Source of the DNA: Novisyntrophococcus fermenticellae
GTDB taxonomy: Bacteria; Bacillota; Clostridia; Lachnospirales; Lachnospiraceae
Assembly: GCF_018866245.1 (NCBI RefSeq)
Contig: NZ_CP076458.1
Location: forward strand, 620,001 to 684,000
DNA length: 64,000 nt
Direction of reading: 5' to 3'
In this document: positions 1,846 through 36,112 of the stretch, one piece after another
How positions within the stretch are numbered: position 1 is the stretch's first letter
Layout of the letters: each line of letters opens with the position of its first letter
The notes under the pieces: model-generated
Databases searched by the model: none
The model's input: only the letters and a program-made list of their open reading frames with translations
What the model was told of the DNA's origin: nothing
Position numbers and translations under genes: made by a program

Positions 1846-1875
1846 TTGACACCCACCCTCTACATATGCTATTCT
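1846..1875 (+). promoter_or_regulatory. Promoter of the polyamine operon leader
   Basis: TTGACA at 1846-1851 and an extended -10 (TGC then TATTCT, 1870-1875) are separated by 18 bp. It begins 10 nt after the CoA ligase stop, so transcription from about 1882 would produce a leader of roughly 370 nt before the arginine decarboxylase start. Confidence 0.6.
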
Positions 1876-1881
1876 TTTAGC

Positions 1882-2222
1882 CAGTATGAAGAGACATTAT
1901 CGTTTTCATGCAAATATTGACCACTTCCATTGTGCAGCACGAAGGAAGTTAAGCCCAGACGGACAGGCGGGTCAGCTGCCGAGCGTGGGAAACCACATTA
2001 TTGATTGAGTTAAAAGCTCAAATTTTATAAGTTGATTACTTAATAATCCGTGCGGATGCACATCACTTGTGAAACGATCAATAATAGCAGGGAAACATAT
2101 TTGCTATGTAGACGCGAAGACGATGAATGTCATGAATATAAAGGCAGGAGGATCACTTTCAGGCCGGATATATATTCTGTGAGATTTTGGCAGGTGATGC
2201 ACATCACCTGCCTTTTTTGGCG
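1882..2222 (+). ncRNA. Structured leader RNA of the polyamine operon (candidate riboswitch or attenuator, family not recognised)
   Basis: This 340-nt stretch has no convincing gene. It shows several hairpins: CTTCC/GGAAG around 1924-1950 enclosing GTGC/GCAC; a CCCA...TGGG-bounded stem around 1953-1992; TTGAG/CTCAA near 2005-2022; ATAGCA/TGCTAT near 2083-2109; and a perfect terminator at 2189-2218. The 12-mer GATGCACATCAC occurs at 2055-2066 and again inside the terminator (2196-2207). Consequently CATCACTTG at 2061-2069 can pair with the terminator 5' arm CAGGTGATG (2191-2199) with one G-U pair, giving a possible antiterminator. I compared it by eye with SAM, lysine, guanidine, ZTP, T-box, cobalamin and c-di-AMP consensus elements and found no match. 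Function in sensing a polyamine or related metabolite is inference from the operon downstream. Confidence 0.5.
2189..2218 (+). terminator. Intrinsic terminator upstream of the arginine decarboxylase
   Basis: A perfect 10-bp stem GGCAGGTGAT / ATCACCTGCC with a GCAC tetraloop is followed by six T residues (2213-2218). It lies 37 nt before the first gene of the operon, where a terminator makes sense only if transcription is conditionally terminated or if it ends a separate leader RNA. Confidence 0.8.
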
Positions 2223-2255: not shown

Positions 2256-3716
2256 ATGAACGATAGGAACATAGAAGAACAAAGAAGGGCCCCTATTTAT
2301 GAAGCGCTTGAGTCCTTTCAAAAAAAGAGGGTGGTTCCCTTTGACGTTCCGGGTCACAAAAGAGGGAGAGGAAATCCGGAGCTGGCGAAGCTTCTGGGAG
2401 AGAAGTGCGTGGGTCTCGATGTCAATTCCATGAAGCCTCTGGATAATTTATGTCACCCCGTATCCGTAATCCGGGATGCGGAAGAGCTTGCAGCCAGGGC
2501 CTTTGGTGCAGCAGATGCATTCTTGATGGTAGGTGGGACGACCTCAGCGGTACAGAGCATGATTCTGTCCGTCTGTAAGGCAGGTGAGAAGATGATTCTT
2601 CCCAGAAATGTACATAAGAGTGTCATTAATGCACTGGTTCTGTGCGGTGCAGTTCCGGTTTATGTAAATCCGGATGTGAACAGTATGCTGGGCATTTCTC
2701 TTGGTATGGAAATGAACCAGGTGGAGAAGGCAATCCGGGAAAACCCGGATGCAGTGGCAGTCTTTATCAATAACCCTACCTATTATGGAATTTGTTCCGA
2801 CATCCGTTCCATTGTGAAGCTGGCCCACACACATGGGATGAAGGTCCTTGCAGATGAAGCTCATGGAACCCATCTCTATTTTGGAAAGGGGCTTCCTGTA
2901 TCGGCGATGGAAGCAGGAGCGGATATGGCGGCAGTCTCCATGCATAAGTCGGGAGGCAGTCTGACCCAGAGCTCCCTGCTCCTTTTGAACAAGGGTGTCA
3001 ATGGGGACTATGTGCGGCAGATCATAAATCTGACGCAGACCACCAGTGCTTCCTACCTGCTGCTGTCAAGCCTGGATATTTCGAGAAGAAATCTGGCTTT
3101 GAGAGGAGAGGAGTCATTTGCCCGTGTGGTGGAGATGGCGGAATATGCCAGAGATGAAATTAATTCCATCGGCGGATATTACGCCTACGGGCGGGATTTA
3201 ATTAACGGAACCAGTATCTTCGAATATGATGTGACAAAGCTTTCTGTCTATACCCTGGGTAATGGACTGGCGGGGATTGAGGTCTATGACCTTCTCCGGG
3301 ATGAATATGACATCCAGATCGAGTTCGGAGATATCTGCAATATTCTGGCCTATATTTCCATCGGAGACAGAATTCAGGATATCGAACGTCTGGTTGGCGC
3401 TCTGGCGGATATTGAGCGCCTCTATAAAAAAGACCGGACAGGGATGCTCTCCGGAGAATATATAGCGCCTGAGGTTGTGATTTCCCCGCAAAGTGCATTT
3501 TATTCCCGGAAGATATCGGTCCCTGTGGAAGAATCAGCAGGAAAAATCAGCGGTGAGTTTGTGATGTGCTACCCGCCCGGAATTCCAATACTGGCCCCGG
3601 GAGAGATGATTACGAAGGACATCGTGGAGTATATCCTCTACGCCAGAGAAAAGGGCTGTTCTATGCAGGGAACCGAAGACCCTGCGATAGAGCATCTGAT
3701 GGTGCTGGAAAACTGA
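2256..3716 (+). CDS. speA: PLP-dependent Orn/Lys/Arg decarboxylase, probable arginine decarboxylase (Gram-positive SpeA type)
   Basis: A 486-residue fold-type I PLP enzyme, the size of the short Bacillus-type arginine decarboxylase. The pyridine-nitrogen aspartate is D200 in 'LADEAHGTH' and the Schiff-base lysine is K231 in 'VSMHKSGGSLTQSS'. The N-terminal 'VPFDVPGHKRGRGN' is the family hallmark. Family members act on arginine, ornithine or lysine; arginine is favoured because agmatine deiminase and N-carbamoylputrescine amidase, which consume agmatine, are in the same operon. The start at 2256 follows AAAGGGG; a longer in-frame start at 2187 would lie inside the terminator and is rejected. 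First gene of a six-gene operon, 17 nt from speE. Confidence 0.88.
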   Translation: MNDRNIEEQRRAPIYEALESFQKKRVVPFDVPGHKRGRGNPELAKLLGEKCVGLDVNSMKPLDNLCHPVSVIRDAEELAARAFGAADAFLMVGGTTSAVQSMILSVCKAGEKMILPRNVHKSVINALVLCGAVPVYVNPDVNSMLGISLGMEMNQVEKAIRENPDAVAVFINNPTYYGICSDIRSIVKLAHTHGMKVLADEAHGTHLYFGKGLPVSAMEAGADMAAVSMHKSGGSLTQSSLLLLNKGVNGDYVRQIINLTQTTSASYLLLSSLDISRRNLALRGEESFARVVEMAEYARDEINSIGGYYAYGRDLINGTSIFEYDVTKLSVYTLGNGLAGIEVYDLLRDEYDIQIEFGDICNILAYISIGDRIQDIERLVGALADIERLYKKDRTGMLSGEYIAPEVVISPQSAFYSRKISVPVEESAGKISGEFVMCYPPGIPILAPGEMITKDIVEYILYAREKGCSMQGTEDPAIEHLMVLEN

Positions 3717-3733: not shown

Positions 3734-4591
3734 ATGGAGATATGGTTTTCAGAAATGCACACGCCTAACGTGAAGCTTTCGGTGCGGATCGATAAGCAGC
3801 TATTTTCAGGTGAGAGTGCATATCAAAGAATTGATGTGTTCGAATCCCAGGAGTTCGGAAAATTTGTGGCCCTGGACGGAAACATTGTCTTTTCAGATAA
3901 AGATGAATTCATATATGATGAAATGGTGACCCATGTGCCGATGGCGGTCCATCCCTATGTGAAGCATGTGCTGATCATCGGCGGAGGAGACGGAGGGGTA
4001 GCAAAAGAGCTCCTGCAATATCCTTCGATTACAGCCATCGATGTGGTGGAATCGGATAAACTGTTCGTAGATGTGTGCCGGGATATTTTTCCGGAGGTGG
4101 CCTGCGGACTTACAGATCCCAGGGTACAGGTTTACTTTGACGACGGGTTACGCTTTCTAAGAAATAAAAAAGAGCAATACGACCTGATCATTAATGATTC
4201 CACGGATCCCTTCGGACACACGGAAGGGCTTTTTACCAAAGAATTTTATGGCAGCTGTTATAAGGCACTTCGAGAAGACGGCATCATGGTATATCAGCAT
4301 GGAAGCCCGTTTTATGATGAGGATGAGATGGCCTGCAGGAGCATGCACCGGAAGGTGTACCGTTCCTTTCCGATAAGCCGGGTCTACCAGGCCCATATTC
4401 CCACATGTTCCTCCGGTTATTGGCTGTTTGGATTTGCCTCCAAAAAGTATCACCCGCTTCATGATTTTAAACCGGAGGCCTGGAAGAAATTAAATATAGA
4501 AACATGGTACTATACGACGAATCTTCACACCGGCGCGTTTATGCTGCCAAAATATGTAGAAGATCTACTGGAAGAGGAGGAAAATCGATGA
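3734..4591 (+). CDS. speE: Spermidine synthase (polyamine aminopropyltransferase)
   Basis: A 285-residue aminopropyltransferase that moves the aminopropyl group of decarboxylated SAM to putrescine. The N-terminal tetramerisation strand region 'YQRIDVFESQEFGKFVALDG' is followed by the nucleotide loop 'LIIGGGDGGVAKELLQYP' (about residues 83-100), the acidic 'DDGLRFL' and 'IINDSTDPFG' segments that hold the amine substrate, and the C-terminal 'GYWLFGFASKKYHP'. Start ATG 3734 has AAGGAG 8 nt upstream. Its stop overlaps the next start by 4 nt. No S-adenosylmethionine decarboxylase gene is visible in this window, so decarboxylated SAM must come from elsewhere. Confidence 0.92.
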   Translation: MEIWFSEMHTPNVKLSVRIDKQLFSGESAYQRIDVFESQEFGKFVALDGNIVFSDKDEFIYDEMVTHVPMAVHPYVKHVLIIGGGDGGVAKELLQYPSITAIDVVESDKLFVDVCRDIFPEVACGLTDPRVQVYFDDGLRFLRNKKEQYDLIINDSTDPFGHTEGLFTKEFYGSCYKALREDGIMVYQHGSPFYDEDEMACRSMHRKVYRSFPISRVYQAHIPTCSSGYWLFGFASKKYHPLHDFKPEAWKKLNIETWYYTTNLHTGAFMLPKYVEDLLEEEENR

Positions 4592-5856
4592 GCAGATTAT
4601 TAATAATCGGATGTGGTGGTGTTGCAGCAGTGGCAATTCAAAAGTGCTGTCAGAACAGCCAGGTATTTACGGACATCTGTATCGCAAGCAGAACAAAGAA
4701 AAAGTGTGATGATTTAAAGGAAAAGCTGGAGAAAACCACGGAAACCAGAATCCAGACAGCGGAAGTGGATGCGGACCGTGTGGAAGAGGTTATTTCCCTC
4801 ATAAAGTTCTACAAGCCGGATGCGGTCTTGCATGTGGCCCTTCCTTATCAGGATCTGACCATTATGGAGGCCTGCCTTGCTGCAGGAGCAGACTATATTG
4901 ACACGGCCAATTTTGAACCCGAAGACACGGAGGATTCCAAGTGGCGCACTGTTTATGAAAAACGCTGTGAGGAGTTGGGATTTACGGCATATTTTGATTA
5001 TTCCTGGCAATGGGATTACAAGGAGCGCTTTGAAAAGGCTGGTGTTACGGCGCTTCTTGGAAGTGGCTTTGACCCTGGCGTCACCAGTGTATTTTCCGCC
5101 TATGCCTTAAAGCATTATTTTGATGAAATTCATACTATAGATATCTTAGACTGTAATGGCGGTGACCACGGATATCCTTTTGCCACCAACTTCAACCCGG
5201 AAATCAACCTGAGGGAGGTCTCTGCGAATGGCTCCTACTGGGAGGACGGGCATTGGGTGGAGACGAAGCCCATGGAGATTAAATCCAGGTATAATTTCCC
5301 CCAGATAGGGGAGAAGGACATGTATCTGCTTCACCATGAAGAAATTGAATCCCTGGCAAGGAACATTTCCGGCGTCAGGAGAATACGTTTCTTCATGACC
5401 TTTGGTCAGAGCTATCTGACGCATATGAAATGCCTGGAAAATGTAGGGATGCTTTCCACCTCACCCGTATCCTTTAACGGCCAGGAAATTGTCCCCATCC
5501 AGTTCTTAAAGGAGCTCCTTCCTGATCCGGCCTCATTGGGACCAAGAACCGTGGGGAAGACCAATATTGGATGTATTTTCACAGGAATCAAGGAAGGAAA
5601 GGAGAAGACCATCTATATCTATAACGTATGTGATCATCAGGAGTGTTATAAAGAGGTAGGGTCACAGGCAATTTCGTATACAACAGGTGTTCCTGCGATG
5701 ATCGGAGCCATGATGGTTGTGACCGGCCAATGGAAAAAACCCGGTGTGTTCAATGTGGAAGAGTTTGACCCGGATCCGTATATGGAAGCATTAAATCAGT
5801 GGGGGCTGCCCTGGGTTGTATGCGAGGATCCGGAAACCGTCACTGTATGGAGATAG
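4588..5856 (+). CDS. Carboxynorspermidine synthase (saccharopine dehydrogenase family)
   Basis: A 422-residue NADPH-dependent enzyme expected to condense aspartate semialdehyde with a diamine to give carboxynorspermidine or carboxyspermidine. The N-terminal Rossmann loop is 'LLIIGCGGVAAVAIQ', followed by 'HVALPYQDLTIMEACLAAGADYIDTAN' and 'GVTALLGSGFDPGVTSVFSAYA', both characteristic of this saccharopine dehydrogenase branch. The start at 4588 has GAGGAGG 8 nt upstream and overlaps the speE stop in an ATGA arrangement, indicating coupled translation. The decarboxylase that completes the pathway is directly downstream. Having both this route and SpeE in one operon gives two ways of making triamines. 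Confidence 0.9.
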   Translation: MSRLLIIGCGGVAAVAIQKCCQNSQVFTDICIASRTKKKCDDLKEKLEKTTETRIQTAEVDADRVEEVISLIKFYKPDAVLHVALPYQDLTIMEACLAAGADYIDTANFEPEDTEDSKWRTVYEKRCEELGFTAYFDYSWQWDYKERFEKAGVTALLGSGFDPGVTSVFSAYALKHYFDEIHTIDILDCNGGDHGYPFATNFNPEINLREVSANGSYWEDGHWVETKPMEIKSRYNFPQIGEKDMYLLHHEEIESLARNISGVRRIRFFMTFGQSYLTHMKCLENVGMLSTSPVSFNGQEIVPIQFLKELLPDPASLGPRTVGKTNIGCIFTGIKEGKEKTIYIYNVCDHQECYKEVGSQAISYTTGVPAMIGAMMVVTGQWKKPGVFNVEEFDPDPYMEALNQWGLPWVVCEDPETVTVWR

Positions 5857-5864
5857 GACAGGCG

Positions 5865-6986
5865 ATGAAAATTGAGAAATTACAAACACCCTGTTATGTG
5901 ATAGATGAAGGCAGGCTGGAAGAAAACCTGAAAATCTTAAAAAGAGTGAAAGAAAACACGGGGTGCAGCATATTACTGGCACAAAAAGCCTTCTCCTGTT
6001 TTGCGGAGTATCCTCTGATCGGGCGCTACATTGACGGCACCACAGCAAGCGGAATTTATGAAGCAAGACTTGGCAAGGAAGAGATGGGGCTTGAAAATCA
6101 TGTATTTTCACCGGCCTATAAGGAAGAGGATTTCCAGGCACTGGTTCAGATCTGCGATCATATCGTATTTAATTCATTTTCCCAATTAGAACGGTATAAG
6201 GACCGGCTGGATGGTGTGCAGGCGGGAATCCGTATCAATCCGGAGTGTTCTACGCAGGCAGGTCATGATATCTATGATCCCTGTGCGCCCGGCTCCCGGC
6301 TGGGGGTTACGGCAGAGCAGTTTCGGGAGGAGTGCCTGCCCCTTCTTTCCGGACTTCATTTTCATACACTGTGCGAGCAGAATGCGGATGACCTGAAAAA
6401 GACGCTGGACGTTGTGGAAGAGAAGTTCGGAAGATATCTGTCCCGGATTTCCTGGCTGAATATGGGCGGAGGGCATCATATCACCAGATCTGACTACGAT
6501 ATAAAACTTCTGGAAGAATGTATCATAAGGATGCAGAAGAGGTATGGGCTTCATGTATATCTGGAGCCTGGGGAGGCAGTTGCCTTAAATGCCGGATACC
6601 TGGTGACGGAAGTTCTGGAGGTGGTGGAAAATGGGATCAAGACCTTGATTTTGGATACCTCTGCGTCCTGCCATATGCCGGATGTTTTGGAGATGCCTTA
6701 CAGGCCTCCGTTAAAAGACAGCGGGATGCCGGGGGAAAAACCATATACCTACAGGCTTTCTTCCTGCACCTGCCTCGCCGGAGACATTATCGGGGATTAC
6801 TCCTTTGACCGGGAGATAAAGATTGGAGACAGGTTGTATTTTACGGATATGGCGATTTACTCTATGGTTAAAAACAATACCTTTAACGGAATGCCGCTGC
6901 CATCTATTGCTGCGATGGACAGCAAGGGAGAATGCCGGATGATAAGGACTTTTGGATATGAAGACTTCAAGAAACGGCTGTCCTGA
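5865..6986 (+). CDS. nspC: Carboxynorspermidine decarboxylase
   Basis: A 373-residue PLP enzyme of the alanine racemase / group IV decarboxylase fold that decarboxylates carboxynorspermidine or carboxyspermidine. The PLP lysine is K41 in 'CSILLAQKAFSCF'. 'AGIRINPECST', 'LHFHTLCEQ', 'LNMGGGHHITR' and 'YLEPGEAV' line the cofactor, and 'SSCTCLAGDIIGDYSF' supplies the catalytic cysteine of the partner subunit. I prefer the ATG at 5865; another in-frame ATG at 5847 would overlap the preceding gene. Product by context is norspermidine or spermidine. Confidence 0.9.
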   Translation: MKIEKLQTPCYVIDEGRLEENLKILKRVKENTGCSILLAQKAFSCFAEYPLIGRYIDGTTASGIYEARLGKEEMGLENHVFSPAYKEEDFQALVQICDHIVFNSFSQLERYKDRLDGVQAGIRINPECSTQAGHDIYDPCAPGSRLGVTAEQFREECLPLLSGLHFHTLCEQNADDLKKTLDVVEEKFGRYLSRISWLNMGGGHHITRSDYDIKLLEECIIRMQKRYGLHVYLEPGEAVALNAGYLVTEVLEVVENGIKTLILDTSASCHMPDVLEMPYRPPLKDSGMPGEKPYTYRLSSCTCLAGDIIGDYSFDREIKIGDRLYFTDMAIYSMVKNNTFNGMPLPSIAAMDSKGECRMIRTFGYEDFKKRLS

Positions 6987-7001: not shown

Positions 7002-8150
7002 ATGAAAAGATTAAAAAGCTTTCCGGCAGCTGATGGGTTCCATATGCCGGGAGAATTTGAACCCCATCGGGGATGTATTATGATCTGGCCCAAACGGCCG
7101 GGCTCCTGGCCCTTTGATGCAAAAAAGGCAAGGAAAACATTTGCCCGTATTGCGGAAATTATTGCAGACAGCGAGCCTGTGATTATGCTTTGTGAGAGCG
7201 ATGTAACAGACAGTGCCCGCCGTATGCTCTCAGACAGAATTCAAGTGGTGGAGATGCAATCCGACGATGCATGGGCAAGAGATGTGGCCCCAACCTTTGT
7301 GGTGAACCAGGAGGGAGAGGTCCGGGGAATTAACTGGAGGTTTAACGCCTGGGGAGGCACTGTGGACGGGCTTTATCCGAACTGGGAAAAGGATGACCGG
7401 ATTGCAGAAAGCTTCTGTGAAAAGTTCGGATATCCGGTCTATGATGCCGGAAATTTTGTTCTGGAAGGAGGAGCTGTCCACTCGGACGGAGAAGGGACTG
7501 TACTGGTGACAGAGAGTTGTCTTCTGAGTGCCGGGCGAAATCCATCCCTTAGTAGAGAAGAGATTGAGGAACAGCTGAAAAGGTACCTGGGGGCTGCGAA
7601 AATAATCTGGCTGAAATCAGGTATTTACCAGGATGAAACCAATGAGCACGTAGATAATGTATGCGCTTTTGTCCGTCCCGGTGCGTTGGTTCTGGCCTGG
7701 ACGGATGATGAGAATGATCCGCAATATGAAATGTCCCTGGCGGATTTAAGGCTGCTGGAACAGGAGACCGATGCCCGGGGGAGGCATTTTAAGATATACA
7801 AGCTTCCTGTTCCGAAGCGGCCGGTCTGTATTACACAGGAGGAGCTTTCCGGACTTGTCTTTGAACCGGGAGAGGATGAAAGGGAGGTTGGAGAGCGGCT
7901 TGCTGCCAGCTATGTGAACTTTTATATCTCAAACGGCGGAGTGGTCGTTCCCCAGTTTGGAGATGGACACGATGCGGACGCGGTGCGGATATTAGGAGAA
8001 TGCTTTCCGGAAAGAAAAATCCATCCGGTTTATGCAAGGGATATCCTTGTGGGAGGTGGAAATATACATTGTATTACACAACAGATTCCGAAAGGAGGTT
8101 TGTATGAGAGAAGTAACGGTGGCGGCAGTTCAGATGAAGTGCGGTGCTGA
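7002..8150 (+). CDS. aguA: Agmatine deiminase
   Basis: A 382-residue guanidino-group modifying enzyme (pentein fold) that hydrolyses agmatine to N-carbamoylputrescine and ammonia. The nucleophile is C357 in '[13 protein letters not shown]'; '[11 protein letters not shown]', '[22 protein letters not shown]' and '[13 protein letters not shown]' supply substrate-binding acidic and histidine residues. RBS GGAGGA precedes ATG 7002. The 3' end overlaps the next gene by 47 nt, so the last ~15 residues are encoded in DNA also read in another frame. Confidence 0.93.
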
Positions 8151-8982
8151 CAGAAAGAAAAACATAGAACATGCGGAACATCTGGTGCGGCAGGCGGCAG
8201 GGAAGGGAGCGCAGGTAATCCTGCTTCCTGAACTGTTTGAAGGCCCTTATTTCTGCCAGGAAAGAAGGTACGAAAGCTATGCACTTGCAAAAACGGCAGA
8301 GGAAAATGATGCGGTCAGGCATTTTTCAAAAATCGCTTCAGAGCTCCAGGTAGTCATTCCCGTCAGCTTTTATGAGGAAACCAAAAACAGCATGTTTAAT
8401 TCAGTGGCCGTTCTTGATGCGGACGGAAGAAATCTTGGGATATATCGGAAAACGCATATACCGGATGACCACTATTATCAGGAAAAATTTTATTTTACTC
8501 CCGGGGATACCGGGTTTCGGGTGTTTGATACAAGATATGGGAAAATAGGCATCGGCATCTGCTGGGACCAGTGGTTTCCGGAGACCGCCAGATGCCTTGC
8601 TTTGCAGGGAGCTGAACTGATTCTGTATCCGACCGCCATCGGAAGCGAACCAATATTGGAATGCGACAGCATGGAGCATTGGCGGCGGTGTATGCAAGGC
8701 CATTCGGCTTCCAATATTGTTCCGGTGGCGGCGGCCAACCGGGTGGGAGAGGAATGGATAATTCCCTGTGCGGAAAACGGAAACCAAAGCTCTTCACTTA
8801 AATTCTACGGCTCCTCCTTTCTCACAGACAGTACCGGTGCTGTGATAAAATCCATGGGCAGAATGGAAGAAGGGGTTATCTGTGCATCCTATGATTTAGA
8901 CCTGATCAGGATGGAACGCAGGAACTGGGGCCTCTTCCGCGACCGCAGGCCCGAGATGTATGGAACGATTTTATCTTGTTAG
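8104..8982 (+). CDS. aguB: N-carbamoylputrescine amidase
   Basis: A 292-residue nitrilase-superfamily amidase that converts N-carbamoylputrescine to putrescine, CO2 and ammonia, completing the arginine-agmatine-putrescine route. The Glu-Lys-Cys triad is E43 ('[11 protein letters not shown]'), K116 ('[10 protein letters not shown]') and C153 ('[11 protein letters not shown]'). The start at 8104 is fixed by AAAGGAGG six bases upstream; a start at 8032 has no such site. It lies inside the end of aguA by 47 nt. Last gene of the polyamine operon. Confidence 0.93.
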
Positions 8983-19169: not shown

Positions 19170-20805
<1,636 letters not shown>

Positions 20806-20923
20806 TGCTGGTGGCGATGCGTTTTGGGGAGACACCCGTACCCATCCCGAACACGATGGTTAAGACCAAAGCGGCCGATGGTACTGCACTGGAGACGGTG
20901 TGGGAGAGCAGGTGGCTGCCAGC
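20806..20923 (+). rRNA. rrf: 5S ribosomal RNA (operon 1), between 16S and 23S
   Basis: About 118 nt with the conserved CCCATCCCGAACACGATGGTTAAG and GGTACTGCACTGGAGACGGTGTGGGAGAG segments (read in part). Closing stem CTGGTGGC (5') / GCTGCCAG (3') fixes the ends to within two bases. It lies upstream of 23S instead of in the usual place downstream of it; no other 5S follows the 23S gene. Confidence 0.93.
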
Positions 20924-20927
20924 TTAC

Positions 20928-21121
20928 TGAAAGCAACTTAATGAGTCCGCTAGGACGAATTTAGTGCGAAGTAGTTCATGAACCTTAACGAGCATAGCGA
21001 GTTTAGTTGAATGAACATACCCCTTGAAAGCAACTTAATGAGTCCGCTAGGACGAATTTAGTGCGAAGTAGTTCATGAACCTTAACGAGCATAGCGAGTT
21101 TCGTTGAATGAACATACCCCT
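20928..21121 (+). repeat. 97-bp tandem repeat, two copies, between 5S and 23S (operon 1)
   Basis: Copies begin at 20928 and 21025 with TGAAAGCAACTTAATGAGTC and end with GAACATACCCCT. Each unit can fold: GAGTCC/GGAC around GCTA, and GTTCAT ... ATGAAC closing around a CGAGCATAGCGAG segment. The copies differ by a few bases (for example TTTAGTTG versus TTTCGTTG). The second operon has three copies. Confidence 0.9.
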
Positions 21122-21394
21122 GGTTTTACCAGTGATCAGAAGATACAACATAGGTTGTGTTTCCTGATGACTGATAAATGATCAGTCAGATACGTACCTT
21201 GAAAACCGCATACAGATATAATCAATATCCAAGCGTTAATAACGTAAGATAGAGAAAAGACATCCGAGGCATCAGATACGCAAGTAGCTGATGTTACAAA
21301 CCAAGCAAGAACGATCAAACGATCGATGCTTATAAATGAATCAGTAAACACAAAGAACCAATCCGCACGCTAGCGGAGCGGTGGACTTTTAAAA
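21122..21394 (+). other. Pre-23S spacer of operon 1 with processing stem arm
   Basis: Non-coding. A hairpin-rich part (TGATCAG...CTGATCA-like pairs at 21130-21190) is followed by ACCTTGAAAACCGCATACAG (around 21197-21217). That segment is complementary at 22 of 23 positions to 24484-24508 downstream of 23S, so the pair would bracket the 23S precursor. No gene is visible. Confidence 0.7.
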
Positions 21395-24288
<2,894 letters not shown>

Positions 24289-24550
24289 AAGCACTTGATG
24301 AATGCAAGTCGCAGACGCAGCATGAATCCTGGTGCGCAGGTCGTTCCATTGAACAACGTGAGATGGAACTTCCAAATGCACCATGATTCAGACAGGCGAG
24401 ACAGACGTCGAGCCGGAACTGAAGAAGCGGCAAAGCAATCATTAAGTGAGGTCCGGTGTTTACAAAAGGTGGAAAAGATGTGATAATCTGTATGCGGTTT
24501 TGAAGGTATGTTTTTAGATAAAAAGCATAAACTAACCTATAATTAAATAA
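24289..24550 (+). other. Post-23S spacer of operon 1
   Basis: Non-coding 262 nt. It contains a long local hairpin in which TGAATCCTGGTGC (~24323) pairs with GCACCATGATTCA (~24379), enclosing GTTCCAT/ATGGAAC, and the 3' arm of the pre-23S stem, ATCTGTATGCGGTTTT (24485 onward). The sequence is repeated after the second 23S gene until about 24546 / 36026, where the duplication ends. Confidence 0.7.
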
Positions 24551-24622
<72 letters not shown>

Positions 24623-24630
24623 CTTAAAAG

Positions 24631-24666
24631 AAGTCCTGTAAACATTAAAATTACAAGACTTTTTAT
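24631..24666 (+). terminator. Terminator of rRNA operon 1 / tRNA-Asn
   Basis: Stem AAGTCCTGTAA / TTACAAGACTT with one mismatch, ten-base loop, followed by a T-rich tail (TTTTATTG). On the opposite strand it would also face the end of the EamA gene. Confidence 0.7.
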
Positions 24667-24691
24667 TGTTGAGAAAATCAAGGGATTTGCG

Positions 24692-25105
24692 TCACAGAAC
24701 CATTATCAAGGTGCCGGCTGTTATAAGAACCGCTCCAATCAATGACTTGGAAGTGAAGTTTTCATGTAAGAATACAAAAGCCAAAATCAATGTAATTACG
24801 ACGCTTAATTTATCTATGGGAACCACTTTTGAAACATTACCCATTTGTAAAGCCTTATAATAACATAACCAGGAGACTCCGGTCGCCAGACCTGAAAGAA
24901 TTAGGAATAACCAGCTTTCTCTTCTGATTTCTGTTATCCCGTGCTGCGCGTTTGTGAGAAAAACCATCCCCCAGGCCATGACTAATACAACGACAGTACG
25001 AATCGCTGTGGCCAGGTTGGAATTCACTCCATCAATTCCGGCTTTTGCCAGAATCGATGTCAATGCAGCAAACAGGGCAGATAAAATAGCAAATAGTGCC
25101 CACAT
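24692..25105 (-). CDS. Half-size EamA/DMT family transporter
   Basis: A 137-residue membrane protein with one EamA repeat: four to five helices, opening 'MWALFAILSALFAALTSILAKAGIDGVNSNLATAIRTVVVL' and closing 'KLSVVITLILAFVFLHENFTSKSLIGAVLITAGTLIMV'. Typical DMT exporters have two such repeats (about 300 residues); this one would need to dimerise, like the small multidrug resistance and other single-EamA proteins. Start 25105 is chosen because GGAGAGGGAG lies just upstream of it; the 25123 ATG would sit inside that ribosome site. Substrate unknown. Confidence 0.82.
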   Translation of the reverse strand: MWALFAILSALFAALTSILAKAGIDGVNSNLATAIRTVVVLVMAWGMVFLTNAQHGITEIRRESWLFLILSGLATGVSWLCYYKALQMGNVSKVVPIDKLSVVITLILAFVFLHENFTSKSLIGAVLITAGTLIMVL

Positions 25106-25264
25106 ATAATACTCCCTCTCCATCTATGTCTTCAGATATCAGAGAAAAGCAGAATATCATCTGCAGAGTCATTGCTTTTTCTGATAAGTTATAGTTTACT
25201 CTTTAAATGAAAATTGTCAAGTACGTATGACTGTGATCTTTGACCTTAATTTTCCCCAGCTTCA

Positions 25265-25293
25265 TTGACAAAAAATAAATACAGGCGTAATAT
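25265..25293 (+). promoter_or_regulatory. Promoter of the MATE transporter
   Basis: TTGACA (25265-25270), 17-bp spacer, TAATAT (25288-25293), 28 nt before the start codon. Confidence 0.65.
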
Positions 25294-25320
25294 TGTAGCA
25301 GAAAAAACAGGAGATGTGTC

Positions 25321-26679
25321 ATGAAATTTAAATTTTTAAGTCAAAGTATGGAACAACGCAGGGAGATGATATTGAAAGGGAGTATGTTATCTACCATTCT
25401 TCTGCTGTCATTACCCACTCTGATGATGGGGGCAGTGCAGTCCATGATACCTGTCATTGATGGATTATTCCTGAATAACCTGGTGGGTACAGCTGCCGCC
25501 AGTGCTGTGACCTATTGCACACCCGTTGTAAATATGACTACGGCATTGGCACAGGGTTTAAGCGCGGCAGGTATGGCAATTATTGGACAGTTCAATGGGA
25601 TGGGAAATTTTAAAGAGAGCAGACGTACAACCGTACAACTGATTCTTTTTGCCTTTATACTTGGATTTGTGTTGGCACCTGTTCTGGTGGTGGTAGCATT
25701 TGCTCTGTCAGGCCATGTAAATGCAGATATAGCACATAATGTTTTGATATATATTGCACTGAATGCGTTGGTTATTCCATTTTCTTTCCTGGAATCAATT
25801 TACAATGCAATTAAGAATGCAAACGGAAAACCAGAAGATTCCTTCGTACGTATGATTATTATGCTTGCTCTGAAGCTTGTGTTTAATACCCTTTTTGTTG
25901 GCGTATTTTCCTGGGGATTGATTGGTTCAGTAATGGCGTCTCTGGCTTCTAACATATTGATTACGTTATGGATGTTTTATGAGTTATTTATCAGTAAAAC
26001 CGGGGATAGACTGGAATTTAAAGGCTTTCATTTTGAGAAGGATATCATAAAAAAACTGTTGTATATCGGTTTTCCCTCCATGCTTTCCAGTCTGATGCTT
26101 AACCTGGGATTCTTCCTGATCAACAATGAAGTGGAGAAATATGGAGCGGTTATCCTGAACGGGCAGGGAATTGCCAATAATATTACTTCTGTCTGTTTTA
26201 TTCTGCCGTCTTCTTTTGGGTCGGCAGTCACAACTATGGTAAGCATGAATATTGGTGCGGGCAAGATTCAAAGGGCAAAACAAGCCTGTCTGGCAGGTTG
26301 CATCGTCAGTTCTTTAACTGCTGTGCTGCTCATTGCAATAGTTGTTCCTCTTTCCTCTCATTTAACAATACTGTTTACCAGAGAGCCAAGGGTGCTTTCC
26401 GTGGCGAACAGAGCACTTCATATCTATACATATTCAGTCATAGGTTTTGGAATCGCCATGGTCGAACAGGGTGCATTTATTGGACTGGGGAAGACAAAAA
26501 TTACGCTTGTGATGAGCATTCTCAGGGTATGGCTGCTGCGTTACATCTTTATACTTGTTACTGAGGCCTATTTAAGTTATTATGCAGTCTTCTGGGGGAA
26601 TCTATTTTCAAATTATGCAGCGGCACTTATTTCAACAATACTGATACTAAGAATGAAGTGGAATTCGGCCATTAATTAA
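25321..26679 (+). CDS. MATE family efflux transporter
   Basis: A 452-residue protein with about twelve hydrophobic segments in two similar halves. 'LLLSLPTLMMGAVQSMIPVIDGLFLNNLVGTAAASAVTYCTPV' opens the first half and 'LLYIGFPSMLSSLMLNLGFFLINNEVEKYGAVILNGQGIANNI' the second, matching the MATE pattern. It should export cationic compounds using a Na+ or H+ gradient. RBS CAGGAGATG. Stands alone between convergent genes. Confidence 0.9.
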   Translation: MKFKFLSQSMEQRREMILKGSMLSTILLLSLPTLMMGAVQSMIPVIDGLFLNNLVGTAAASAVTYCTPVVNMTTALAQGLSAAGMAIIGQFNGMGNFKESRRTTVQLILFAFILGFVLAPVLVVVAFALSGHVNADIAHNVLIYIALNALVIPFSFLESIYNAIKNANGKPEDSFVRMIIMLALKLVFNTLFVGVFSWGLIGSVMASLASNILITLWMFYELFISKTGDRLEFKGFHFEKDIIKKLLYIGFPSMLSSLMLNLGFFLINNEVEKYGAVILNGQGIANNITSVCFILPSSFGSAVTTMVSMNIGAGKIQRAKQACLAGCIVSSLTAVLLIAIVVPLSSHLTILFTREPRVLSVANRALHIYTYSVIGFGIAMVEQGAFIGLGKTKITLVMSILRVWLLRYIFILVTEAYLSYYAVFWGNLFSNYAAALISTILILRMKWNSAIN

Positions 26680-26885
26680 CGGATGCTGATTAAGAATAGA
26701 TAAAAAATACAATAGATTAGGCCAGCGAAGAATATAGAATAAACTCCGCTGGCCTCATGCACCATATCAATATATTAGCATATTTTTTAATACAGTACAC
26801 TAACTGCAATAATTAACATAGCTCTGACTTCTTAAATATACAGAAATTTAATATCTGTTAACAGATATTAGCTAAGGTTAATGGA

Positions 26886-27086
26886 TTATGCAACGTGTAC
26901 ATTTACAGCCTGTAATCCACGATTACCCTGAGTGGTTTCGAAAATGACTGACTGACCTTCTTCTAATGTCTTATAGCCATCCATTGCAAGACCGGAAAAG
27001 TGAACAAATACATCTGCTCCATCTTCACCTGTAATAAAACCAAACCCCTTTTCAGCATTAAACCATTTTACTGTACCCTTATTCAT
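26886..27086 (-). CDS. Cold-shock protein (CspA family)
   Basis: A 66-residue single OB-fold RNA chaperone. RNP1 'KGFGFITG' and RNP2 'VFVHFSG' are intact; opening '[15 protein letters not shown]'. AAAGGAGG lies 8 nt before the ATG at 27086; the upstream extension to 27152 has no ribosome site. A TTGACA sits on the minus strand at 27147-27152, so a promoter and short leader are likely. Confidence 0.95.
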
Positions 27087-27248
27087 GAAAGATACCTCCT
27101 TTAAATTTGTATGCATTTTTTTATAAATAAAAAAACCGCATATAAATGTCAATCATTAATAGAATAATGACTTACAAAAATATGCGAAATCAAAACTTAT
27201 TAAAAACACTTTCTGTAGAATAACACATTAGAGGAAGAATGTCAAGAC

Positions 27249-27297
27249 AAAAAATAAAAATGCGTTATCAGGCAAAAAATAAAATGCGTTATCAGGC
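27249..27297 (+). repeat. Two tandem 24-25-bp repeats upstream of the aconitase promoter
   Basis: AAAAAATAAA(A)ATGCGTTATC followed by AGGC occurs at 27249-27273 and 27274-27297, differing by one A. The second copy ends 12 bp before the -35 box of acnA, a position suited to a regulator-binding site. Confidence 0.75.
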
Positions 27298-27309
27298 TAG
27301 AGAAAGGCT

Positions 27310-27338
27310 TTGGCAGAAGAAGGAATCTATGTTATGAT
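27310..27338 (+). promoter_or_regulatory. Promoter of the aconitase gene
   Basis: TTGGCA (27310-27315), 17-bp spacer, TATGAT (27333-27338). The start codon is 51 nt downstream, with AAAGGGG as ribosome site. Confidence 0.6.
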
Positions 27339-27388
27339 TACAGGAAAGAACAGGAAACGGGCAAAGATGGAGAAAGGGGCTGTGTTAT

Positions 27389-30097
27389 ATGAAGCAGACG
27401 AAGAAAAAAGCCTTCAAGCAGTTAAAAATTGAAAACCGTGTCTACGGATACTATGATATAAGCATTTTAAACGAAGATGGATATGATATAGATCATCTTC
27501 CCTATTCTATCAGAATCTTACTGGAATCTGTAATCAGACAATGTGATGGCTATGCCATCACAGAAGAGCATGTCTATAATCTTGCAAACTGGAATAAAGG
27601 AAGTGATTCAGAAAGTGAGGTTCCCTTTAAACCGGCAAGAGTCATTTTACAGGATTTTACTGGGGTTCCAGCGATTGTAGACCTTGCTTCCATGAGACAG
27701 GCGATGTCAGAGGCAGGTGGAGATATCCATAAAATCAATCCGGAGGTACCGGTTGACCTTGTGATTGATCATTCCGTTCAGGTAGACGAGTATCTTTCTC
27801 CAAATGCATTGGAGAATAATGTTAAAAGAGAGTTTGAACGTAATATAGAGCGGTATCAGTTCCTGAATTGGGGAAAAGAAGCATTTGATAATTTTCAGGT
27901 AGTTCCTCCTGCAACCGGAATCGTTCATCAGGTAAATCTGGAATATCTGGCAAAGGTTGTCCAGGAAAAGACAGAAGAGGGTGGGCAAATTCTATATCCG
28001 GATACATTGGTCGGTACGGATTCCCATACCACGATGATTAATGGGCTTGGTGTACTGGGCTGGGGTGTCGGCGGAATCGAGGCAGAAGCAGGAATGCTGG
28101 GACAGCCGTCTTATTTTCCCACACCGGAAGTAATAGGTGTGCGGCTGGCAGGAGCACTCCCTACAGGAGTAAATGCCACAGATCTTGCACTTTATATCAC
28201 ACAGATTTTACGGAAAAGGGGTGTGGTTGGGAAGTTTGTAGAATATTTTGGGGAAGGAATTGATGCGTTATCGTTGGCCGACAGAGCGACGGTTGCCAAT
28301 ATGGCACCGGAATATGGAGCTACCTGCGGATTTTTCCCTGTGGATGAGAAAACGCTGCAGTATCTGGAACTGACAGGACGGACGCAGGAACATATCCGCC
28401 TGGTGGAATCCTATTTAAAGAAAAATCATCTTTTTTTTGATAAATCAAAAGAAGAACCGGAGTATACGGAGGTTATTGAGATAGATTTATCCGGAATTGA
28501 AACATCCCTGTCGGGGCCCAAGCGTCCACAGGATCTGATTCCTCTTGAGAAAATGAAAGAAGAATTCATAAAGTCGGTTACAGCACCAGTAGGTAACCAG
28601 GGACACGGACTTTTCCGTCCGGAGTTTGATAAAGAAGTATGTATACAACTTCCGGATGGAAGAAGCAGCGTCATGAAGGCAGGAGCATTAGCCATAGCCG
28701 CCATTACATCCTGTACCAATACTTCAAATCCGGCGGTCATGGCAGGAGCCGGCCTGCTTGCCAGAAATGCCGTTCAAAAGGGATTGAAAGTGCCGGCACA
28801 TGTGAAAACTTCATTGTCACCAGGTTCCAAAGTGGTTACCGGCTATCTGAAAGATTCCGGCCTGCTGTCATATTTAGAGCAGTTGGGTTTTTATATTGTT
28901 GGCTATGGCTGTACAACCTGTATCGGAAATTCAGGTCCTTTGCTGCCGGAGATTGAAGAGGCTATTACAGGGCATGATTTACTGGTGACGTCGGTTCTTT
29001 CCGGAAATCGTAATTTTGAAGGGCGTATACATCCTCTGGTAAAGGCAAATTATCTTGCTTCTCCCATTCTGGTAGTAGCATATGCGCTTGCAGGAACCGT
29101 CAATATTGATTTGCTCCATGAGCCGCTCGGAGTGGGAAATGATAACCAGGAGATATACTTAAAAGATATATGGCCGACATCAGAAGAAATAACTGAAACT
29201 GTTGCCAGGAGCGTAAAACCGGCATTATTTGAAAAAGAATACAAGACTGTTTATGAGGATAATTCTTTATGGAATGAGATTCAGGCGAATACAAAGACAG
29301 GAGAATTGTACAAGTTTGATAAAAAATCAACCTATATACAGAACCCTGATTTCTTTAAGGACATGCCGAAGGTGCCGGAGGGTATAAAACCTCTTTCCGG
29401 GATAAGAATTGCGGCCAAATTTGGAGATTCAATTACGACGGATCATATTTCTCCGGCAGGAGCTATCGGAAGAAATACACCTGCCGGTAAATATCTGACG
29501 GAACATGGGATTGCGCCGGAGGAGTTTAATACGTATGGTTCCAGAAGGGGCAATCATGAGGTGATGATGCGGGGAACCTTTGCCAATATACGAATTCGAA
29601 ATCAAATAGCTCCGGGCACGGAAGGCGGCGTTACCACTTACTGGCCGAATCGTGAGGTTATGACGATCTATGAAGCCTGTATGAAATATAAAGAAGATCA
29701 TACAGGGCTTGCAGTCTTAGCTGGAAAAGACTATGGGATGGGTTCTTCCAGAGACTGGGCAGCGAAAGGAACCAGGTTACTTGGTATCAGGATGGTAATT
29801 GCGGAAAGCTACGAACGGATCCACCGTTCAAACCTGGTAATGATGGGAATCCTTCCTCTACAGTTTATGCCCGGAGAATCCGCAGAAAGTCTGGGATTGA
29901 CGGGAGAAGAGAGTCTCAGCGCTGCGATTGATGAAACAGTAAAGCCCTTTGATATAGTCAGGGTTACTGCTGAAGCGGAAGGTAAGACAACGAAATTTGA
30001 CTGTATTGTGAGATTTGATTCCAATGTCGATGTGGATTATTACCGCCATGGCGGAATACTTCAGATGGTATTACGTGAGAAGCTAAGAACAAACTGA
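27389..30097 (+). CDS. acnA: Aconitate hydratase, AcnA type
   Basis: A 902-residue monomeric [4Fe-4S] hydro-lyase that interconverts citrate and isocitrate. The cluster ligands are C442 ('[23 protein letters not shown]'), C508 and C511 ('[14 protein letters not shown]'). '[26 protein letters not shown]' and the C-terminal swivel domain with '[17 protein letters not shown]' and '[16 protein letters not shown]' are all present. Full length for AcnA/IRP-type enzymes. No other tricarboxylic acid cycle gene is next to it; it stands alone between two rRNA operons and is followed by a hairpin. Confidence 0.96.
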
Positions 30098-30123
30098 TTT
30101 TATACAAACGGATTTCACTATGC

Positions 30124-30181
30124 AAAGAATAGAGCTGACCTCTTACAAGTAAGCTTGAACGGATCAAACTCTATTCTTTAT
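30124..30181 (+). terminator. Hairpin after acnA
   Basis: Stem AAAGAATAGAG (30124-30134) / CTCTATTCTTT (30169-30179), 11 bp, with a 34-nt loop that itself contains CTTAC/GTAAG. No long T run follows, but it is well placed to end acnA transcription before the rRNA promoters. Confidence 0.55.
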
Positions 30182-30230
30182 GTATAGTTGTAGTGTAATT
30201 GGAGAGATGAGAAAAAAGTCGAAAAAGGTG

Positions 30231-30353
30231 TTGACAAATATAAATAACATGTGATACTATAACTAAGCTGTCAACGGGACAAACGGAAACAGCAAGACAA
30301 CTTAAAAAATGTCAAAAAAAGTTCTTGACAAACAGCATGCTGCATGATAAGAT
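30231..30353 (+). promoter_or_regulatory. Tandem promoters of rRNA operon 2
   Basis: P1 TTGACA at 30231 and P2 TTGACA at 30325 with TAAGAT at 30348-30353, matching operon 1. The two operons become similar at about 18841 / 30224, just upstream of P1. Confidence 0.75.
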
Positions 30354-30551
30354 AATCAAGTTGCTGCTGAGACAGGAACACAGAAGAACCTTGATAATTA
30401 AACAGTGAAACACATCCTCGAAAGTTCTAAAAGTTTTAGTTTTGAACGATCGAAAGATCCTTATTAAATCAGTAAAAGGGATAAATTAGCTAGTTAGTTG
30501 ATTTTGAACTGGAACAGACTCGCAGCATTTTTTTTGGAAAATGATGCACAT

Positions 30552-32087
<1,536 letters not shown>

Positions 32088-32187
32088 AAGAATAAGTAGA
32101 AGATGTGTTTTGCTGTTTAGTTATCAAGTAATGGGAAAGAAGTAAAAAAAGCCCATAGGCTTGTAAGTATCAAAACTGAATAACTAC

Positions 32188-32305
32188 TGCTGGTGGCGAT
32201 GCGTTTTGGGGAGACACCCGTACCCATCCCGAACACGATGGTTAAGACCAAAGCGGCCGATGGTACTGCACTGGAGACGGTGTGGGAGAGCAGGTGGCTG
32301 CCAGC
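32188..32305 (+). rRNA. rrf: 5S ribosomal RNA (operon 2), between 16S and 23S
   Basis: Identical to the copy in operon 1 as far as I can read it, and in the same unusual position between 16S and 23S. The spacer 32084-32187 before it lacks tRNA genes and carries the 3' arm of the pre-16S stem. Confidence 0.93.
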
Positions 32306-32309
32306 TTAC

Positions 32310-32600
32310 TGAAAGCAACTTAATGAGTCCGCTAGGACGAATTTAGTGCGAAGTAGTTCATGAACCTTAACGAGCATAGCGAGTTTAGTTGAATGAACAT
32401 ACCCCTTGAAAGCAACTTAATGAGTCCGCTAGGACGAATTTAGTGCGAAGTAGTTCATGAACCTTAACGAGCATAGCGAGTTTAGTTGAATGAACATACC
32501 CCTTGAAAGCAACTTAATGAGTCCGCTAGGACGAATTTAGTGCGAAGTAGTTCGTGAACCTTAACGAGCATAGCGAGTTTCGTTGAACGAACACACCCCT
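32310..32600 (+). repeat. 97-bp tandem repeat, three copies, between 5S and 23S (operon 2)
   Basis: Copies start at 32310, 32407 and 32504, each exactly 97 bp. The first two are nearly the same as copy 1 of operon 1; the last carries changes (GTTCGTGAACC, TTTCGTTGAACGAACACACC), including paired changes that keep GTTCGT/ACGAAC complementary. The spacer from 32601 to 32873 then matches operon 1. Confidence 0.92.
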
Positions 32601-32873
32601 GGTTTTACCAGTGATCAGAAGATACAACATAGGTTGTGTTTCCTGATGACTGATAAATGATCAGTCAGATACGTACCTTGAAAACCGCATACAGATATAA
32701 TCAATATCCAAGCGTTAATAACGTAAGATAGAGAAAAGACATCCGAGGCATCAGATACGCAAGTAGCTGATGTTACAAACCAAGCAAGAACGATCAAACG
32801 ATCGATGCTTATAAATGAATCAGTAAACACAAAGAACCAATCCGCACGCTAGCGGAGCGGTGGACTTTAAAAA

Positions 32874-35767
<2,894 letters not shown>

Positions 35768-36112
35768 AAGCACTTGATGAATGCAAGTCGCAGACGCAGC
35801 ATGAATCCTGGTGCGCAGGTCGTTCCATTGAACAACGTGAGATGGAACTTCCAAATGCACCATGATTCAGACAGGCGAGACAGACGTCGAGCCGGAACTG
35901 AAGAAGCGGCAAAGCAATCATTAAGTGAGGTCCGGTGTTTACAAAAGGTGGAAAAGATGTGATAATCTGTATGCGGTTTTGAAGGTATGTTTTTAGATAA
36001 AAAGCATAAACTAACCTATAATTAACTTTCGATAGTCCGGCGTTAAAACCTCGGGCTGTTATTTGTGTTATCAATTATAGAACATAACGTCGAAATAATA
36101 TACATTATAAAG
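35768..36112 (+). other. Post-23S spacer of operon 2
   Basis: Matches operon 1 up to about 36026 (long TGAATC...GATTCA hairpin and the pre-23S 3' arm), then diverges. The tRNA-Asn gene of operon 1 is absent and I see no gene in the last ~90 nt before the terminator. Confidence 0.7.

Follow-up and report, generated by a model that had tools for sequence, protein, structure and literature searches.

A conserved two-domain leader RNA upstream from polyamine genes in Novisyntrophococcus fermenticellae as a candidate polyamine riboswitch

Comparative analysis of the leader of a polyamine operon in Novisyntrophococcus fermenticellae, taken from a 64,000-nt window of the genome (NZ_CP076458.1, positions 620,001 to 684,000; coordinates below are those of the window), points to a conserved RNA of about 200 nt that, as judged from aligned sequences, is built of two domains with covarying stems. 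This RNA is a real and widespread cis-regulatory element that most likely represents a new polyamine riboswitch class, catalogued in part under another description. The leader probably functions in cis as a riboswitch that turns transcription off in response to spermidine or a closely related polyamine. On balance, we are inclined to go further and regard the RNA as belonging to a second natural class of polyamine (spermidine) riboswitches, unrelated to the first and far more widespread, for which this would be the founding description. In this view, polyamine synthesis and import in Clostridia, Bacilli, and Negativicutes would be controlled by a modular RNA of two domains and about 200 nt, of which catalogues have so far listed only a fragment, labeled an sRNA.

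The leader and its conserved RNA

The leader (1882 to 2255) lies between a gene for an acyl-CoA ligase-like protein (801 to 1835) and the polyamine operon; it and the leader and operon features described below are on the + strand. The promoter (1846 to 1875; 10 of 12 matches) comprises a −35 element, TTGACA, beginning at 1846, an 18-nt spacer, and a TG-preceded −10 element, TATTCT, ending at 1875, which would place the transcription start near 1882. From this predicted start, 337 nt extend to the end (2218) of an intrinsic terminator (2189 to 2218), which consists of a perfect 10-bp stem (2189 to 2212) with its loop at 2199 to 2202, followed by six T residues (2213 to 2218); 37 nt separate it from the ATG at 2256. 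The fold of the leader was more stable than those of all 100 dinucleotide shuffles (z = −5.09). These elements had been anticipated in the original prediction, which described a strong promoter, about 340 nt of structured noncoding leader, and a perfect 10-bp terminator 37 nt before the decarboxylase gene. Upstream, genes at 17 to 1835 resemble those for the radical SAM protein TrsS (below the model cutoff) and a DVU_1553-family AMP-dependent ligase; this cluster is apparently unrelated and ends just before the leader. Two rRNA operons, each with the 5S between the 16S and 23S genes, are located farther downstream on the + strand (19171 to 35769).

The 5′ domain of the RNA (1918 to 1982, 65 nt), which is also supported by covariation, matches Rfam family RF02440 with 63.5 bits, above the gathering score of 37.2. 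The family is entered as "Streptococcus sRNA SpF59 (ldcC RNA)" and typed "Gene; sRNA," with no function stated in the entry. Among the Rfam leader families (T-box, the speF RNA motif of alphaproteobacteria, which we take to be RF00518, and others), RF02440 was the only one with a match at or above its gathering score here; assignment to any other known riboswitch or leader family was rejected, the remaining matches being weak and far below their gathering scores. The RNA had been described beforehand as unrecognized and as matching no known riboswitch class, and a match to a known RNA family had been named as evidence against it. To the letter, the Rfam search returned such a match, and the term "unrecognized" has to be withdrawn for the part that is RF02440, but the family is an sRNA entry without a stated function.

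The RF02440 model has 54 positions and does not represent the whole RNA, as covariation spans 1910 to 2104. The conserved RNA is closed by stem P1b (1910 to 1917 with 2097 to 2104), which is supported by covariation and by a fold in which P1b was enforced; in the free fold of the window a local hairpin takes its place. An outer closing stem, P0 (1893 to 1907 with 2116 to 2131, one bulge; −18.5 kcal/mol), appears in part in the folds. Within the 5′ domain, stems P2 (1918 to 1922/1970 to 1974), P3 (1924 to 1928/1944 to 1948), and P4 (1953 to 1955/1966 to 1968) are accompanied by a loop, ACGGACA, and then UGCCG (within 1953 to 1982); these two elements, both fixed by the search pattern described below, could form a pseudoknot (CGG with CCG). 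Hairpin P5 (1985 to 1988/1993 to 1996), seen in the covariation count and in the folds, precedes the 3′ domain (1998 to 2099), which lies outside the Rfam match and contains P6 (1998 to 2005/2077 to 2084), P7 (2006 to 2009/2017 to 2020), P8 (2023 to 2031/2066 to 2074), P9 (2034 to 2037/2045 to 2048), P10 (2050 to 2053/2058 to 2061), and a 3′ tail. Two models were used, R1 for P2 to P6, with no Rfam match required, and R2 for the 3′ domain; they match the window with 139.1 bits (1918 to 2088) and 92.2 bits, respectively, the window being among the sequences from which both were built. The stretch after P6 (2085 to 2099) has the consensus GAGUAGUAAAAGUA, kept in 40 of the 66 loci found by RF02440, and has no assigned pairing; the copy in the window departs from this consensus (TAGCAGGGAAACATA).

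Covariation was assessed with loci found by the sequence pattern. Out of 153, 18 were removed (no P8 motif, cut, or too long), leaving 135 complete loci; removal of 26 near-duplicates left 109 below 90% identity, and exclusion of 25 outside 238 to 264 nt left 84 leaders, which were aligned on sequence alone and scored with an eleven-helix model whose structure was read from one leader (L052). Cells in which both sides had changed and the pair was kept numbered 359, compared with 115.5 (standard deviation [SD], 17.4) in shuffles; none of 500 shuffles reached 359, and sliding the partner gave at most 165. Stem covariation across related leaders, proposed as a check in the original prediction, was thereby found. 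Paired cells made up 87.6%, versus 81.5% in shuffles. The compensatory changes lie largely in P2, P3, P5, P9, and the middle pair of P4, while P6 and P8 show little variation and are supported mostly by pairing; P1a and P10 are paired in 67% and 55 to 73% of cells, values that partly reflect poor alignment. In the 5′ domain, 22 positions are prescribed by the pattern, and their invariance is by construction; the requirement for CTTGT[GA]AA in P8 when loci were chosen is part of the reason why covariation of P8 in this alignment is little informative. Of the 66 loci retrieved with RF02440 only, a search blind to the 3′ domain, 63 contain CTTGT[GA]AAA and 57 contain TTTTATAAG; the 3′ domain was recognized by a strict pattern in 64 and by eye in the remaining 2. 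RNAalifold, applied to the 84 leaders, recovered P3, P6, P7, and an extended P8, replaced P2 and P4 by different short pairings, and proposed none for P1, P5, P9, and P10. The free fold of the window contains P2 to P5, P7, P10, most of P6 and P8, the outer stem, and the terminator; P1b and P9 are absent from it.

Variants, distribution, and downstream genes

By model matching, neither domain is universal; each can be missing or degenerate. An RF02440 match (E up to 1) was absent from 8 of 16 weaker R1 matches (16 of the 17 weakest were examined), and of these 8, 7 match R2 and the eighth does so weakly. Four loci that keep the 5′ domain (L037, L047, L135, and L141) were not matched by R2 at E up to 10, and the R2 match is weak in five others (L044, L107, L113, L118, and L133). 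Four loci are without the Rfam 5′ domain (L223, L226, L227, and L228); these and the four without an R2 match precede speA, speD, speE, or potA.

RF02440 was found in 36 of 200 genomes of the family to which the window belongs, in 22 of 295 of its order, in 18 of 398 of its phylum, and, among 14 control genomes, in Lactococcus lactis only. R2 was found in 21 of the 398 phylum genomes, comprising all 18 with RF02440 plus 3, and R1 in 47 of 341 genomes of the class, at one place each. A scan of named genomes with a 31-nt pattern gave at least 117 stretches; the 80 matches listed include Lachnospiraceae, Oscillospiraceae, Christensenellaceae, Acidaminococcus, and Phascolarctobacterium, as well as Bacillus, Neobacillus, Paenibacillus, and Fontibacillus, and many of the carriers among them are gut or rumen bacteria.

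The first gene behind the RNA in the window (2256 to 3716) is a speA-like gene of the Orn/Arg/Lys decarboxylase type, for which no NCBIfam model exceeded its cutoff; its product would be an arginine decarboxylase, as suggested by the neighboring aguA and aguB genes. It is nearest, at 90 to 91% identity, to the speA genes of two Hungatella and Clostridium loci (L040 and L102). There follow speE (polyamine aminopropyltransferase, 3734 to 4591), a carboxynorspermidine synthase-like gene (4504 to 5856; 403.6 bits, below the model cutoff of 800, with the match starting at residue 32 of the longest open reading frame), nspC (carboxynorspermidine decarboxylase, 5799 to 6986), aguA (agmatine deiminase, 7002 to 8150), and aguB (N-carbamoylputrescine amidase, 8032 to 8982); speE, nspC, aguA, and aguB were assigned by NCBIfam.

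This association extends to the related loci. After 4 of 183 loci (chosen by RF02440 or the pattern) with less than 500 nt downstream had been set aside, a gene for polyamine synthesis or import was the first panel gene, on the same strand, in 177 of 179, with genes named by NCBIfam for representatives and by BLAST for the others. The first panel gene was speA in 74, speD in 52, potA in 25, casdh (carboxynorspermidine synthase) in 25, and speE in 1; 2 had none. Reduced by a 67-nt key, the set holds 162 distinct RNAs, 160 of them with a polyamine panel gene first, and the same was true of 47 of 47 R1 matches and 21 of 21 R2 matches, sets that overlap the 183 loci. Among the 25 casdh-first loci, 13 continue with nspC (12 have more than 2,200 nt read), and none of speA, speB, speD, and speE appeared in the downstream sequence covered (up to 2.6 kb). 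The two exceptions (L013 and L179) retain the RNA and the terminator and stand before genes for secreted lipoproteins, by eye peptidase-like and carboxylesterase-like.

Pairing between the aptamer and the terminator

A 12-mer, GATGCACATCAC, occurs at 2055 to 2066 and again at 2196 to 2207, within the terminator. It is the sole 12-mer repeated within 1882 to 2218, and any repeated 12-mer was present in 4 of 2,000 mononucleotide shuffles of this region. Both copies had been noted in the original prediction, together with pairing of 2061 to 2069 with the 5′ arm of the terminator (2191 to 2199), which we confirm as nine standard pairs; the duplex reaches 2070:2190, with −14.5 kcal/mol for 2061 to 2070 with 2190 to 2199. 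Folds, energies, and coevolution indicate that the strand from 2061 to 2070 is common to the aptamer (3′ side of P10 and P8) and the antiterminator, and folds and energies likewise indicate 2190 to 2199 as the segment of the terminator 5′ arm able to pair with it.

A terminator was found in 112 of 147 leaders (those of the 153 with enough flank), and 107 of these 112, with a mean preceding leader of 318 nt, had a recognizable P8 motif and entered the comparison. The best complement of the terminator 5′ arm was the 3′ strand of P8/P10 in 82 of 107 loci, compared with 37.7 (28 to 45) for swapped arms and 6.9 (3 to 13) for shuffled arms in 20 rounds each; 25 arms had their best pairing outside P8/P10. 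For 94 distinct sequences, own pairs averaged −12.96 kcal/mol, versus −10.13 (SD, 0.24) for swapped pairs, with none of 2,000 permutations as low, and versus −10.49 kcal/mol (SD, 0.23) when arms were swapped within the gene context. The own arm was in the best tenth of all arms for just 26 of the 94 (median rank, 22). In the casdh group alone (8 sequences), own and swapped pairs did not differ (−16.06 versus −15.87 kcal/mol), probably because its members are much alike. Individual leaders illustrate the pairing: ACATCATCTTG stands opposite GCAGATGATGT in L018, and GGCACACTAACTTG opposite GTGACGTGTGC in L108, where the best-complement scan favored another site.

In the window, the arm has a stronger complement within 1960 to 1985 (−17.5 kcal/mol, versus −14.5 kcal/mol at 2061 to 2070), and the antiterminator fold (−95.5 kcal/mol) is 8.4 kcal/mol less stable than the aptamer plus terminator (−103.9 kcal/mol), so that energies alone do not predict read-through. 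Thermodynamics was rejected as a proof of switching for this reason. A platform of mutually exclusive pairings tied to the aptamer is strongly supported by complementarity and coevolution. The terminator/antiterminator switch originally proposed has thus gained strong support, as the arm coevolves with a named aptamer strand (82 of 107) and the stems covary.

Regulation, ligand, and relation to known systems

We propose that, when ligand is bound, P8 and P10 would stay closed, the terminator would form, and transcription would end before speA, whereas when ligand is scarce, the strand around CAUCACUUG would pair with the 5′ arm of the terminator, allowing the operon to be read. The direction follows from the architecture: as the antiterminator strand is part of P8/P10, a ligand closing the aptamer should favor the terminator, as expected for an OFF switch. 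Ligand binding and its direction of action are both inferred from sequence. Spermidine or a close polyamine is suggested as the ligand by the genes found behind the RNA (speA, speD, speE, agmatinase, and aguA/B; casdh-nspC; potABCD), since it is the one end product on which the genes leading from putrescine to spermidine, the route via carboxyspermidine, and the importer PotABCD converge. Published expression data agree in part. Deletion of potABCD in pneumococcus lowered polyamines and raised speA (SP_0916) 16.9-fold and speE 14.4-fold by quantitative reverse transcription-PCR (qRT-PCR), although, in the available passages of that study, the two genes were not differential in RNA-Seq (PMC8540371). 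The qRT-PCR rise is what a polyamine OFF switch predicts, with the RNA as a candidate cause. Deletion of putrescine synthesis is described in passages of a review as lowering the expression of transport and spermidine synthesis (PMC7990898), an effect that an OFF switch does not predict.

A riboswitch that senses a different pathway compound (putrescine, agmatine, arginine, norspermidine, spermine, SAM, or decarboxylated SAM) is unlikely but deserves consideration: speA and speD often stand at the head of the operon (74 and 52 of 179), and the carboxynorspermidine genes could indicate norspermidine. The loci with potA first (25 of 179) do not fit arginine, SAM, or decarboxylated SAM, however, and only late steps are visible behind the 25 casdh-first loci; among the ligands suggested in the original prediction, both contexts speak for a polyamine as end product and less for arginine or agmatine. 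It is rather improbable that a polyamine-sensing RNA-binding protein, rather than a small molecule, sets the choice between terminator and antiterminator; the domain losses would suit a protein site, but the stretches conserved letter for letter in loci not selected for them (CTTGT[GA]AAA in 63 and TTTTATAAG in 57 of 66) are as found in aptamers. We give still less credence to the idea that the RNA has no specific pocket and that polyamines simply stabilize its fold, as for many RNAs. Polyamines do bind RNA generally, as passages of PMC10853860 state, but a cation effect needs no letter-for-letter conservation of the 3′ domain.

A trans-acting small RNA, as filed by Rfam under "Gene; sRNA" and as reported in the pneumococcal papers, is hardly credible and was set aside in view of the position before polyamine genes: a polyamine gene on the same strand comes first in 177 of 179 loci, and a terminator lies between in 112 of 147 leaders. 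According to passages of the pneumococcal studies, F59/srn235 was discovered as an sRNA and has a fitness effect, with no mechanism given in those passages (PMC3395615 and PMC12323649). F59 is encoded between SP0915 and SP0916, in the orientation of the latter (PMC3395615, in part), and SP_0916 is identified as arginine decarboxylase in passages of PMC7531197 and PMC7990898. The tabulated extent of srn235/F59/Spd_sr49 (869478 to 869804, 327 nt; table in PMC12323649) is close to the 337 nt predicted for the leader of the window. The likeness of the RF02440/F59/srn235/SN20/Spd_sr49 RNA of Streptococcus pneumoniae to the window RNA concerns the 5′ domain (63.5 bits) and the location before a decarboxylase gene, through the Rfam model and the published position; the family differs in that its model spans 54 positions, out of about 200 nt for the RNA, lacks the 3′ domain with the switch strand, and is filed as an sRNA. 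Transposon data in Table 2 of PMC3395615 give a lung fitness of 0.05 for srn235 and SN20, and if F59 is the leader of SP0916, this effect may reflect the operon and not an sRNA. Our reading, if true, would suggest that pneumococcal F59/srn235, though reported as an sRNA, belongs to the arginine decarboxylase operon as its leader.

Ribosome-dependent attenuation via a leader peptide is equally hard to credit and was rejected as weak: Salmonella speF is under leader elements at low and high arginine (PMC6386406, in part) and a 9-codon, TTG-started frame is common to 56 of the 84 leaders, but no longer frame is stable, the start columns common to at least 60% of these leaders are TTG or GTG within conserved structural sequence, and the frames vary from 1 to 47 codons, except for a one-codon frame at column 285.

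Polyamine riboswitches have long been sought. Among the open-licence titles listed, which for three queries comprised 20 of 82, 30 of 101, and 20 of 51, we found no description of the present RNA as a polyamine regulator, and one may exist elsewhere; "ldcC" and "polyamine" are absent from the main text, as available, of a review of riboswitch discovery (PMC10043782). Several known systems resemble the proposed riboswitch in part. For potB of Borrelia burgdorferi, high spermidine cuts full-length importer transcripts and raises short 5′ RNAs; unlike in the window, the premature 3′ end falls within the coding region, the response is lost when codons are changed in a way that also disrupts a hairpin, and no aptamer is described in the passages available (PMC10319736). 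A leader has been predicted before potABCD in Haemophilus somnus and Pasteurella multocida (Naville and Gautheret 2010, PMC2965389, in part), which, however, are Gammaproteobacteria. The speF RNA motif of alphaproteobacteria is likewise, according to passages of PMC11477304, the leader of a polyamine decarboxylase gene, but it has no match in the window at E up to 10.

A further related system is the spermidine riboswitch that is a variant of SAM-I, known from 13 examples, whose authors expect more classes (Salvail et al. 2023, PMC10853860, in part). Both RNAs are associated with polyamine genes (speE, speB, and ldcC in the case of the variant) and use a terminator platform, and the OFF switch described there is the one proposed here. 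The architecture is different, the SAM-I variant having that of SAM-I, and the window RNA has many more members and is also found before speD, casdh, and potA. No SAM-family match was obtained in 1500 to 2600 of the window at E up to 10 or in three related leaders (L052, L063, and L067) at E up to 1. The window RNA would work like the SAM-I-variant spermidine riboswitch but, by its sequence, is not a member of it, and whereas the accepted bacterial class, as described in the passages available, is rare with 13 examples, the RNA described here is present in 47 of 341 sampled genomes of its class.
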